A DNA stretch of 45,010 nucleotides from Minisyncoccota bacterium (GTDB taxonomy: Bacteria; Patescibacteriota; Minisyncoccia; Phycocordibacterales; JACZSL01): NCBI GenBank assembly GCA_028280145.1, contig JANQMM010000048.1, forward strand, positions 1 to 45,010, in the 5' to 3' direction. The notes below the pieces were generated by a model that was given only the letters and a program-made list of their open reading frames with translations, did no database searches and was not told the DNA's origin. Position numbers and translations under genes: made by a program. This document shows, one piece after another, positions 1-3,860 of the stretch (positions within the stretch are counted from its first letter, which is position 1; each line of letters begins with the position of its first letter).

Positions 1-3000
1 CTGCCCTCCCTGGAATGAAAGGATGTTTCCATAGGTTGCACCGGTGGTGTCCACATCAGAAAGATCAGAGATGGCGGAGACCGATGAGCCGCCAAGACAA
101 GTGCCGTTTACAGCAACACAACCGCCGGTCAGGTTAATACCATTTGCAAATGTAGACGTCGCCGTCGTTGAGCTAACTGTTAGGTAGTTACTTATAACAA
201 CTTCGCCGGTACTGTTTAATCGAAGATACGCATTCGCGACATATTCCGGTTGGTTAGCATGTCTTCCAATGGTGAAAAAGTCCGATGCACTTCCACCATT
301 ATATGGAACACCCGCCCACCATTCAGCATTTCCAGATTGTGTTCCTTGTATACGAATACCTCCCCCACGAGCGGTATCTGTCCGATCGATTCTCAGTTCT
401 GCTCGCGTCGAACCAGAGCCACCGCCGCCGTAGAGTCGCGCTGTCACATTGCCGCTATCGTTTACCACATCTAGTGTTTGGGTTGGTGTTCCTGTACCAA
501 CACCAAGTCTCCCGGAGGAATCAATGGTGAATATATTTCCTTCACTGCCACCATCTGCGGTTATGTTTAGATAATCAGCGGCTTGTGAGGCAACACCCTG
601 AAGATTAAGTAGATCGACATTACCTGTTGCATCATCTGGCTGAACATGCAACAGAGCCGTTGGTACGGACAGACTACTATAATGTTCATTTGAAATAATT
701 GTACCTGTTGCAGTGATACCAAAACGATCCAAAACGACACCATTATTTCCCGTAAAGAAACCTGATCCGGCGCTCAACTGGAAAAATCCACTTCTTTGGT
801 TATCGATCCAGGAATTATTGTAGTTAAGAAGTCGCAAAATACGGTCAGTATCGTTTTCAAATATAAGCGCACTTTCATCGCTACCGTGTACCCGCAAACC
901 ACTATTACCACTGTTGAAGGCAATAAAACCATCATTTATTTCAATGGCATCAGTGTCACTTGGTGTATTGATCTCCAAGGGACCAGCAAATGTGCTTGTT
1001 GCTGTTCCTTCAACCACAAGGTTTCCGCTCGTTGTCGCAATTCCATCTACTGTTAATCCCCCGTCAATTGTAGATGAGGCTTGAGACACAAAACCTGATT
1101 CAAATGTAGAAACACCCGTTGCCGTTAAAGCCGCAAGATTCACATCGTCGAAAAGAGAAGAGCCTTGCACTTCGAACACATCTCCAACCGACGTTGTTGA
1201 AAATCCTCCGATCAAAACAACGCGACTTGTTGAAATCGGGTACTGTAATAAATCATCTGTGGATGTTGCCCACACTCCCGCTCCACCGGCACCGGTTACG
1301 TCAGGGCCACAAACCCACCCACCAGCTCCGTCAGAGCGTGCAAGCTGATCGAGCGGACACGAAATATTAACAATAGTAGAGCTCGCATTAATGACGCTTT
1401 CAACCCGCGCATCTGTATAAAAAAGATTTGATCCTTCCACAAGATCACCTGTATTGATCGCAAGAGAACTTGTTGCTGTATCTACCCAATTTGCCCCATC
1501 CCAAGTAAGCACATTTCCGTACGCAGCTCCAGTCGTATCAACATCTGCCAGATCAGTGATCGAAGACGCACTTATTCCACCAATACATGCACCACCAATT
1601 GAAAAACATCCATTAGCTAGATTGATCCCGTTTGCAAAGGTGCTTGTCGCAATTGTTGAAGTAACGGCAAGGTTCCCTGCAATGGTTGTTGTCCCTTGGT
1701 TTGAAACAGAAAAGAGTGTTGTTCCATCAGAGTCAGCAAGTTGAAGCAGATCAATTCCTGAATCAGTTGAACTTGCTTGAACCACAAACTTACCGCCGGG
1801 AGTTGTTGTGCTCACACCAATCCTACCACCACTTGTTATACGAAAACGTTCAAACGCATTGTCGTACCCGTTAGTGGTTCCCGTTTCAAATGTAATACCT
1901 CCCTGGCTTCCAATACTGTTTCGAAGTCGAAGTGTATTATGACCGTGTTCAATGGCACTTTGTCGGATGCCACCGTCTTGTTCAAAAATAATAACTGGAT
2001 TATCGTCTTCGTTATCGTTATCACGGTCAGCAACGAGAATGAGTTCTGCATCCCCATCTAATCCAGCGTCAATGTGTAGTTGTCCAAGTGGTGTAGTAGT
2101 ACCAATACCAAGCCGACCATTTACCTCGTCAAAAACAAAATTTGCATTCTGCGAAATTACAGTACCACCACTATTTGCATATTGAATGGCATTTGCAGTT
2201 AGACTTCCCGGTGTGTCGGTAAGTGCGGTATACACACTCACTGCATCCGGATTAATACAGGTACCATTTATGGAAACACATCCTCCAGTGAGGTCAATGC
2301 CGTTTGCAAAGGTGCTTGTCGCATTTATTGCCGTAATGTTCAAAAGATTTGCCTCTACGCCTCCGGCAAATGTAGAGGTTGCAGTTGTTGTCGCAACATA
2401 ACTTGCCGCAACAACATCTCCTACCACTGACAGCGTTGCATACGGAGTTGATGTGCCGATACCAACATTGCCGTCCTCAGTGATCGTGAAGAGACTAACG
2501 GCCGCTTCTGTAATAACATCAAAAACGTTTGCCACTTGGCCTGCAATCCGGCGCACCACAAGCCCGACTGCAGAAGTGCTTGTTGCCTCTACTGTAAGCG
2601 ACGCATTAGCAGCAGATGTAGTACCGATCGCCGACTGCCCCGCTCCCCAGACACTTCCGGAGTTAATGGCATAACCGGACGAAAGTATTCTTTGTCTTGG
2701 GCTTAGATTCTCATAACTCTCATCACCACCGCCACACGAACCACCTACCTGAGTTGCAACCTCAATATTCAAATACACCGTGTCATCAGTAAAATTAAAA
2801 TCAAGAGCATCACCACCGGCGGCAACATCACCGATGCCGATAGTAAAGACCCCGTTTAACACCTGTGCGGTCATGTCCTGTGGTGTGCTGGCCGGCCATA
2901 GTTGCGTATCAGGAGCACCTACGGTCTCATCGCTATAAAAACTCAACCTGAAACAATAATCGGTTCCGGTTCCGCCAAGAAGATTTCCATTCACATCAAG

Positions 3001-3141
3001 AAGCCTGCCTTGATAATGCAGAATTGCCGGAACTCCGGGTGCGGCATATACCACCGGTGAAGCGCTCATCAATAAAAAAAGGATGAGCGCCCCGAGGAGA
3101 GCTCTCTTCGTTTTTAGGAAATGTAGGTATGAGTAACTCAT
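1..3141 (-). CDS. Large secreted/surface fibre (tail-fibre/adhesin-like) protein, partial (C-terminus beyond left edge)
   Basis: Minus frame open from ATG at 3141 to the window edge, so it is absent from the ORF track (no stop in window). Starts MSYSYLHFLKTKRALLGALILFLLMSASPVVYAAPGVPAILHYQGRLLDVNGNLLGG (signal peptide). Repeated STFANGI(N/D)L..GC and GIGT(S/T)TP motifs. Confidence 0.85.
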   Translation of the reverse strand, partial: MSYSYLHFLKTKRALLGALILFLLMSASPVVYAAPGVPAILHYQGRLLDVNGNLLGGTGTDYCFRLSFYSDETVGAPDTQLWPASTPQDMTAQVLNGVFTIGIGDVAAGGDALDFNFTDDTVYLNIEVATQVGGSCGGGDESYENLSPRQRILSSGYAINSGSVWGAGQSAIGTTSAANASLTVEATSTSAVGLVVRRIAGQVANVFDVITEAAVSLFTITEDGNVGIGTSTPYATLSVVGDVVAASYVATTTATSTFAGGVEANLLNITAINATSTFANGIDLTGGCVSINGTCINPDAVSVYTALTDTPGSLTANAIQYANSGGTVISQNANFVFDEVNGRLGIGTTTPLGQLHIDAGLDGDAELILVADRDNDNEDDNPVIIFEQDGGIRQSAIEHGHNTLRLRNSIGSQGGITFETGTTNGYDNAFERFRITSGGRIGVSTTTPGGKFVVQASSTDSGIDLLQLADSDGTTLFSVSNQGTTTIAGNLAVTSTIATSTFANGINLANGCFSIGGACIGGISASSITDLADVDTTGAAYGNVLTWDGANWVDTATSSLAINTGDLVEGSNLFYTDARVESVINASSTIVNISCPLDQLARSDGAGGWVCGPDVTGAGGAGVWATSTDDLLQYPISTSRVVLIGGFSTTSVGDVFEVQGSSLFDDVNLAALTATGVSTFESGFVSQASSTIDGGLTVDGIATTSGNLVVEGTATSTFAGPLEINTPSDTDAIEINDGFIAFNSGNSGLRVHGSDESALIFENDTDRILRLLNYNNSWIDNQRSGFFQLSAGSGFFTGNNGVVLDRFGITATGTIISNEHYSSLSVPTALLHVQPDDATGNVDLLNLQGVASQAADYLNITADGGSEGNIFTIDSSGRLGVGTGTPTQTLDVVNDSGNVTARLYGGGGSGSTRAELRIDRTDTARGGGIRIQGTQSGNAEWWAGVPYNGGSASDFFTIGRHANQPEYVANAYLRLNSTGEVVISNYLTVSSTTATSTFANGINLTGGCVAVNGTCLGGSSVSAISDLSDVDTTGATYGNILSFQGGQ
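121..165 (-). repeat. Fibre-protein internal repeat copy C (TSTFANGINLTGGC)
   Basis: Encodes TATSTFANGINLTGGC; followed in protein by VAVNGTCLGGSSVSAISDLSDVDTTGATYGN, parallel to copy B. Confidence 0.7.
1606..1652 (-). repeat. Fibre-protein internal repeat copy B (TSTFANGINLANGC)
   Basis: Encodes ATSTFANGINLANGC, followed by FSIGGACIGGISASSITDLADVDTTGAAYGNVL. Confidence 0.7.
2278..2325 (-). repeat. Fibre-protein internal repeat copy A (TSTFANGIDLTGGC)
   Basis: Encodes ATSTFANGIDLTGGC followed by VSINGTCINPDAV. Confidence 0.7.
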
Positions 3142-3145
3142 CTAA

Positions 3146-3586
3146 CTATAGTGGTACTTGCGGCACATCTGGAGTTTGCTGTGGCGAGATTGTAGACGCC
3201 CGTTCCACAGCTTTTTCCGTAGCTCGTTTTTCAAGATAATCCTCCAGGTTGATAGAGAGGATATAAAAGAGAAAAAGAGCAAACAGTACTCCAATTACAA
3301 TAAGCACACGAAGTAGTGCTTTATATAAACGCCGGAACCCTTCACTTTTCCCGATACCCTTAAACAAAAAAGAAGCAGACTTGTCCGCTTTAGTCTTGCT
3401 TCCTTTTTTTGACCGATGCATGTACCCACGGATAGCTTCCTCTGTTGTCACCCACGCGACATTAGAGAATACCTGTTTGCCTTCAAGCTTACCCGAACGG
3501 ATGAGCTGTCCGACATAATCAGGTGCATACCCAGAGATTTCTGCGGCCTCCTTAAGAGTGATGTACTTGTCCTTTGATTTGCTCAT
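3146..3586 (-). CDS. Helix-turn-helix (excisionase/MerR-like) protein with C-terminal transmembrane helix
   Basis: N-term YITLKEAAEISGYAPDYVGQLIRSGKLEGKQVFSNVAWVTTEEAIRGYM resembles a wHTH; TM LLRVLIVIGVLFALFLFYIL. Stop lies 4 bp from the start of the fibre gene. Confidence 0.75.
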   Translation of the reverse strand: MSKSKDKYITLKEAAEISGYAPDYVGQLIRSGKLEGKQVFSNVAWVTTEEAIRGYMHRSKKGSKTKADKSASFLFKGIGKSEGFRRLYKALLRVLIVIGVLFALFLFYILSINLEDYLEKRATEKAVERASTISPQQTPDVPQVPL

Positions 3587-3605
3587 ATCGCCAAAAATAT
3601 GAGGG

Positions 3606-3620
3606 TCTCGAGGGTCAAGA
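3606..3620. repeat. 15-bp iteron TCTCGAGGGTCAAGA, copy 1
   Basis: Exact match to copies at 3648-3662 and 3774-3788. Confidence 0.9.
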
Positions 3621-3647
3621 TTTGGGAAACTGGGAAATTTCGAGTAA

Positions 3648-3662
3648 TCTCGAGGGTCAAGA
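3648..3662. repeat. 15-bp iteron TCTCGAGGGTCAAGA, copy 2
   Basis: Exact match; 42 bp from copy 1. Confidence 0.9.
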
Positions 3663-3773
3663 CCGGCGTCTACACTATTTATTGTAGATATATATCCCTT
3701 GAAAACAAAGTACCAAGTAAGTCAACCTGTTGATAACTCTTACCTGCTCCAAAAAACGGCTTATTCTAAGGCA

Positions 3774-3788
3774 TCTCGAGGGTCAAGA
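3774..3788. repeat. 15-bp iteron TCTCGAGGGTCAAGA, copy 3
   Basis: Exact match; 126 bp (3 x 42) from copy 2. Confidence 0.9.
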
Positions 3789-3835
3789 TATACCAATATT
3801 TGTCATTTTTACTGTTTTAAGAGCATCTTATCAGC

Positions 3836-3860
3836 AAAAAAGAGCCAAGTCGGCTCTTTT
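3836..3860 (-). terminator. Rho-independent terminator after the pilin gene
   Basis: AAAAGAGCC/GGCTCTTTT stem with T-run on the minus strand. Confidence 0.75.

Follow-up and report, generated by a model that had tools for sequence, protein, structure and literature searches.

A conserved 15-bp palindrome as the candidate operator of a membrane-anchored HTH protein encoded beside surface-fibre genes in Patescibacteria

Introduction

Three identical 15-bp repeats lie upstream of a gene pair in a 45,010-nt stretch of DNA from a Minisyncoccota bacterium (contig JANQMM010000048.1 of assembly GCA_028280145.1), hereafter called the window. The first gene of the pair encodes a small protein with a helix-turn-helix (HTH) domain and a transmembrane (TM) helix, named here HTH-TM, and the second encodes a fibre-like surface protein. 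The initial annotation of this DNA read the repeats as iterons lying on one face of the helix, and as operator sites for a cooperatively binding regulator. Which protein could recognize these repeats, and what would its binding do to the genes downstream?

Results

Three near-palindromic 15-mers confined to one intergenic region

The 15-mer TCTCGAGGGTCAAGA is present on the + strand at positions 3606-3620, 3648-3662 and 3774-3788. A search of the window confirmed the three exact copies at spacings of 42 and 126 bp, as had been claimed, and no further match was found there even at 3 mismatches. No other exact copy was found in the 824-kb assembly, where TCTYGANNNTCRAGA matches at these same three places only and matches with 2-3 mismatches elsewhere are at chance level (13/11 per strand versus 10/9 for the control). 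The genome-wide search proposed by the initial annotation thus found a motif unique to the HTH-TM locus and not scattered; a genome-wide regulon in the organism's own genome was ruled out, the sites being confined to this locus. All three 15-mers fall inside the 299 bp separating a pilin gene from the HTH-TM gene. The longest word present three times in this region is 15 nt, versus 9 nt in 2000 dinucleotide shuffles of it. A terminator-like hairpin (3838..3860), called on the + strand and T-rich on both sides, separates the pilin/pilM genes from the HTH-TM unit.

The downstream gene is read from the minus strand, so the copy at 3774-3788 is the most upstream one. On the coding strand each copy reads TCTTGACCCTCGAGA, a near-palindrome (TCTtGA-CCC-TCgAGA). 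The repeats do precede the HTH-TM/fibre pair as first described, but they are not plain iterons. We refer to these minus-strand sites as O2 (3606..3620), which starts 34 bp 5' of the HTH-TM start codon, O1 (3648..3662) and O3 (3774..3788), the last lying 126 bp from O1. The initial annotation mentioned neither the palindrome nor three features described below: the promoter layout, the regulator-fibre fusions and the additional targets.

The palindrome precedes HTH-TM genes across Patescibacteria

Besides the window protein, a protein search of 397 genomes of the order returned five full-length HTH-TM proteins; 66 loci came from a scan of 85,462 species genomes. Among the latter, 28 encode a protein built like that of the window (126-165 aa, with an HTH, a single TM helix and a short tail), giving with the window protein an ortholog set of 29. 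Three loci from a later class profile search (L193, L194 and L196) duplicate L082, L081 and L103 in both protein and upstream region, and did not enter the count a second time. The names attached to the 28 loci cover many Patescibacteria groups (Lloyd-, Sung-, Campbell-, Azam-, Jorgensen-, Falkow-, Kaiser- and Yanofskybacteria).

At least one TCTCGANNNTCGAGA was found within 300 bp upstream of 28/29 genes at ≤2 mismatches and of 26/29 at ≤1 mismatch. The remaining locus, L097, carries a degenerate site detected by weight matrix, which brings the palindrome to 29/29. The same palindrome was found upstream of none of 33 paralogues sharing only the HTH domain, and each of 179 control palindromes of the same half-site composition matches at most one locus. 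This comparison of upstream regions was the decisive test named at the outset, and it supports, together with the uniqueness of the motif in its genome, the reading of the repeats as operator sites for a regulator. The family consensus drawn from 49 sites is ATCTCGANNNTCGAGAT, with the general form TCTYGA-NNN-TCRAGA; the half-site contains CG, and conservation extends little past one base on either side. Two or more sites are present at 22 of the 29 loci, weaker weight-matrix sites counted, and a single one at the other seven. Across 60 relatives, the exact window 15-mer occurs in its own genome only, because the window sites have T for C at position 4.

A scan of 382 genomes drawn from across the phylum yielded no operator pair. 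A class profile search later matched two of these genomes (G661 and G734), which carry fused forms with a single site, and the pair scan is therefore no positive reciprocal test. Copies are identical, centre included, in 30% of comparisons within a locus versus 5% between loci, suggesting concerted evolution or tuning to the local regulator. The best explanation of the 15-mers is that they are operators, as judged from their pattern of conservation, kept before the same gene across these tiny, poorly studied Patescibacteria; HTH-TM is their proposed binder.

HTH-TM combines a MerR-like winged HTH with a membrane helix

The proposed operator binder (3146..3586, - strand) has 146 aa, with a MerR/BldC/Xis-like winged HTH at about residues 8-64, one TM helix and a short tail. 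A winged HTH and one hydrophobic helix are present in all 29 members, and the HTH is followed by a basic linker and then the TM helix. Past this helix, the tail of unfused forms measures only 18-54 aa, whereas fused forms carry a giant ectodomain. By sequence, 22/29 members match HTH_17 (PF12728) and 8/29 match TIGR01764 at E<0.01. The AlphaFold model (mean pLDDT 84) shows a winged HTH, with pLDDT of about 90 or higher, and a long membrane-spanning helix. With Foldseek, the nearest PDB folds were BldC, phage Xis and RacA, and MerR-type folds were also found (probability ~1 over 50 residues, but weak E-values, ≥0.04). A PDB sequence search with the protein gave membrane-helix noise only, and no phage match was found. 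The positively charged flank of a membrane helix is the cytoplasmic one (positive-inside rule). On average, the residues flanking the helix carry a net positive charge on the side of the HTH, which fits an HTH located in the cytoplasm.

Operators keep preferred distances to each other and to the promoter

Adjacent sites are spaced by 20-26, 31-35 or 42-44 bp, which is near 2-2.5, 3-3.3 and 4-4.2 helical turns, and the 10.5-bp periodicity of the spacings has p ~0.004 versus uniform spacing once close relatives are removed. The helical phasing initially put forward holds in the window (4.0 and 12.0 turns); across orthologues it is looser, a tendency and not a rule of exact integral turns, as at L079, L080 and L083, where spacings of 24-25 bp correspond to 2.3-2.4 turns. 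A distant upstream site such as O3 is unusual, and a comparable one was found only in L082. That 22/29 loci carry at least two sites, with clustered spacings, may point, if only indirectly, to cooperativity across sites.

In 16 of 24 non-redundant loci, the distance from the end of a -10 box to an operator is 5 or 16-20 nt (null mean 4, maximum 9), these preferred windows having been picked after the histogram was seen. The commonest distance is 18 nt (seven loci), and 8/24 loci have no -10 box at the preferred distances. In the window, this 18-nt distance, counted from O1, was used to assign the putative -10 hexamer TACAAT of the HTH-TM promoter (3681..3686, - strand), which a 16-nt spacer separates from a weak putative -35 hexamer TTGTTT (3703..3708, - strand); a stricter consensus promoter scan of the window found no promoter. 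O1 would then occupy about +12 to +26 of the transcript, with O2 further down and O3 upstream of the promoter. The usual layout among relatives has two sites at or just past the transcription start. From established promoter knowledge, we infer that sites placed there point to repression.

Large exported proteins are neighbours, fusion partners and candidate further targets

The gene lying 4 bp after HTH-TM (1..3141, - strand) runs off the window and encodes an exported fibre-like surface protein of at least 1,047 aa. A large exported protein adjoins HTH-TM in nearly all loci. Ten unfused partners are of the fibre type seen in the window, and ten others are homologous to the ectodomains of fused forms (E 1e-17 to 1e-72). 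These fused forms came from a class protein-profile search made without the motif, which returned three single polypeptides of 1,892, 3,936 and 4,910 aa (L201, L202 and L203). Each begins with two tandem HTH domains, followed by a TM helix and then a giant ectodomain; that of the largest contains FG-GAP and beta-helix repeats. AlphaFold of the fused N-terminus from a single sequence was uninformative (pLDDT 42). The exact operator precedes all three fused genes, beginning about 20-34 bp 5' of the start codon (for L198/L203 measured to the second ATG, the first overlapping the -10 box). That adjacent genes have been fused into a single one classically counts as evidence that their products act together. 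Fused forms combine two HTHs with one palindrome and unfused forms combine one HTH with usually two or more, a pattern that is suggestive over these three cases.

The exact TCTCGRNNNYCGAGA is present in 24 copies in 23 HTH-TM-bearing genomes, nearly all at the HTH-TM locus. The two exceptions both stand before other secreted-protein genes, one of them giant. In a Falkowbacteria genome, the second copy is identical at the centre too; it follows a TATAAT by 18-20 nt and precedes, by 28 nt, a second giant secreted protein of at least 2,518 aa encoded 9 kb away. In genome G762, the second copy stands some 140 bp upstream of a gene for a secreted protein. With so few exact copies away from HTH-TM, the surface genes marked by the operator are very few.

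Other observations around these loci

A DnaA-box-like element, TTATCAACA, lies at 3728..3736 (- strand), one mismatch from TTATCCACA, an element enriched upstream of the HTH-TM gene family. Within 260 bp upstream of HTH-TM genes (L079-L144 loci surveyed), TTATCCACA was found exactly at 11/29 and at ≤1 mismatch at 21/29, shuffled 9-mers giving averages of 0.06 and 1.7 of 29. Upstream of HTH-only paralogues it was found exactly at 10/33 and at ≤1 mismatch at 30/33, mostly at -50 to -75 on the coding strand. The organism's own genome has only nine exact copies, several of which stand before secreted/surface-protein genes or an HTH paralogue (L162, L165, L170). This element may be a DnaA box, or it may serve the HTH-only paralogues as their operator. 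A large paralogous family (L107-L144) joins a ...GRSWFV-type HTH to long proteins, which in some members measure about 1,000 aa or more, and lacks the palindromic operator. Finally, the HTH-TM protein on a contig labelled Bacteroidia (BPGX01000014.1, L092) is very similar to that of a Paceibacter locus (L094); this is probably a Patescibacteria contig binned into a Bacteroidia genome.

Discussion

We estimate a probability of about 0.8 that the 15-mers are operators of HTH-TM, which would be a membrane-anchored one-component autorepressor, of MerR/BldC/Xis fold, of the surface-fibre operon. In this reading, HTH-TM would probably repress the operon that encodes it and, with it, production of the giant surface protein. 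The winged HTH would stand in the cytoplasm, with the TM helix holding the protein in the membrane beside the fibre protein of the same transcript, and a transmembrane signal could conceivably be relayed. Two protomers would bind each palindrome, and bound pairs would cooperate across neighbouring, roughly in-phase sites. Occupation of the promoter-proximal operators would block initiation or escape, and this negative autoregulation would cap the amount of surface fibre. O3, 12 helical turns (126 bp) away, could add cooperativity or close a small repression loop. More tentatively, and at less than even odds, the fibre system may read its own gene: the membrane-held fibre (fused forms) or its operon-mate (unfused forms) would bind the operators of the fibre promoter, so that fibre amount or location sets transcription and the locus is anchored under the assembly site.

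Transmembrane transcription regulators of the ToxR, CadC and TcpP type are a well-known class (PMC10269533). HTH-TM resembles them in being a one-component protein with a cytoplasmic HTH and usually a single TM helix, predicted to act from the membrane; as in that class, a single polypeptide contains both the DNA-binding domain and the membrane helix. It differs in its DNA-binding domain, theirs being an OmpR/PhoB-type winged HTH and that of HTH-TM being HTH_17 by Pfam and BldC/Xis/RacA by fold. The extracytoplasmic part also differs, with about 18-54 aa or a giant fibre when fused, as do the operators at the start site, which suggest repression. BldC of Streptomyces is the nearest PDB fold to the HTH, with a MerR-like domain lacking the MerR coiled coil. 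BldC binds 9-bp AT-rich direct repeats head-to-tail, whereas RacA and classical MerR proteins bind DNA as symmetric dimers, on palindromes in the case of MerR (PMC5859096). The sites before HTH-TM are not head-to-tail AT-rich repeats but 15-bp palindromes with a CG-containing half-site, and HTH-TM, unlike BldC, has a TM helix. Classical MerR proteins and RacA of Bacillus subtilis share the MerR-like winged HTH. RacA is soluble, binds many chromosomal sites and anchors DNA to the cell pole. In MerR proteins the HTH is followed by a C-terminal coiled coil for dimerisation and ligand domains; HTH-TM has no such coiled coil but a basic linker and a TM helix. A MerR operator is a palindrome between -35 and -10 with a long spacer, whereas the candidate HTH-TM operators start 5 or 16-20 nt after the -10 box in 16/24 loci. 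By sequence family, HTH-TM is close to excisionases (TIGR01764) and HTH_17 proteins, from which it differs in its linkage to surface-protein genes; no recombinase gene was noticed alongside in the loci read. The literature searched, with most subscription journals outside it, yielded no description of the motif or of the HTH-TM protein, nor of the combination of a MerR-like fold with a dedicated palindrome, a fibre partner and fusion to it.

The main alternative, which we regard as unlikely, is that HTH-TM binds these sites but activates the operon, or mainly tethers the locus to the membrane, so that transcription and translation of the fibre gene and export of its product would be joined in a single location (transertion). 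Transertion by transmembrane regulators has been argued for VtrA/VtrB in Vibrio, where it has support (PMC9977878). The near-constant proximity of a membrane-anchored regulator to a large exported protein would suit such a role, as would the DNA-binding domains carried by the fibre itself in fused forms and the presence of RacA, an architectural protein, among the nearest folds. Activators, however, rarely bind at or downstream of the start site, where these operators lie, and tethering alone would not need a tight -10/operator distance.

It is improbable that a different, global DNA-binding protein uses the sites, HTH-TM being merely its target. The assignment of the binder is indirect and a few extra sites stand away from HTH-TM, but the site tracks the HTH-TM gene, fused forms included. 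HTH-only paralogues lack it, hardly any copy lies elsewhere in the genomes, and the 382 genomes sampled across the phylum contained no operator pair.

We find it very improbable that the motif is an RNA element, with tandem hairpins in the 5' leader controlling translation or stability of the HTH-TM/fibre mRNA. A hairpin could form at each palindrome, and the leader folds better than shuffles (z = -3.6), but good folding is expected of any tandem palindromes. Among the sites, GGG centres (13) and CCC centres (12) are balanced, six distinct words form three pairs, each being one exact 15-mer seen in both orientations, and per locus the G-U mismatches (8) nearly equal the A-C mismatches (7), as expected for double-stranded DNA but not for RNA. 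This strand symmetry argues for recognition of double-stranded DNA, not RNA, and the RNA element was rejected on it. Moreover, O3 is 5' of the putative promoter, and the leader has no Rfam match. Neutral local duplications or mobile-element remnants, which the identity of copies within loci might recall, can be dismissed, since the orthologue comparison contradicts them: many families keep the sites at preferred distances from the promoter, the flanks are unconserved, and control palindromes are absent.

Transcriptional control is little known in the largely uncultured Patescibacteria, as is the control of their large surface proteins, which may attach cells to hosts. In this case, a regulator can be predicted from sequence in many lineages, along with its operator and targets. 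The fused forms carry two cytoplasmic DNA-binding domains and have an operator upstream of the gene that encodes them, which would make an unusually direct feedback from product to promoter. The 15-bp palindrome can also be used as a marker of surface-fibre loci.
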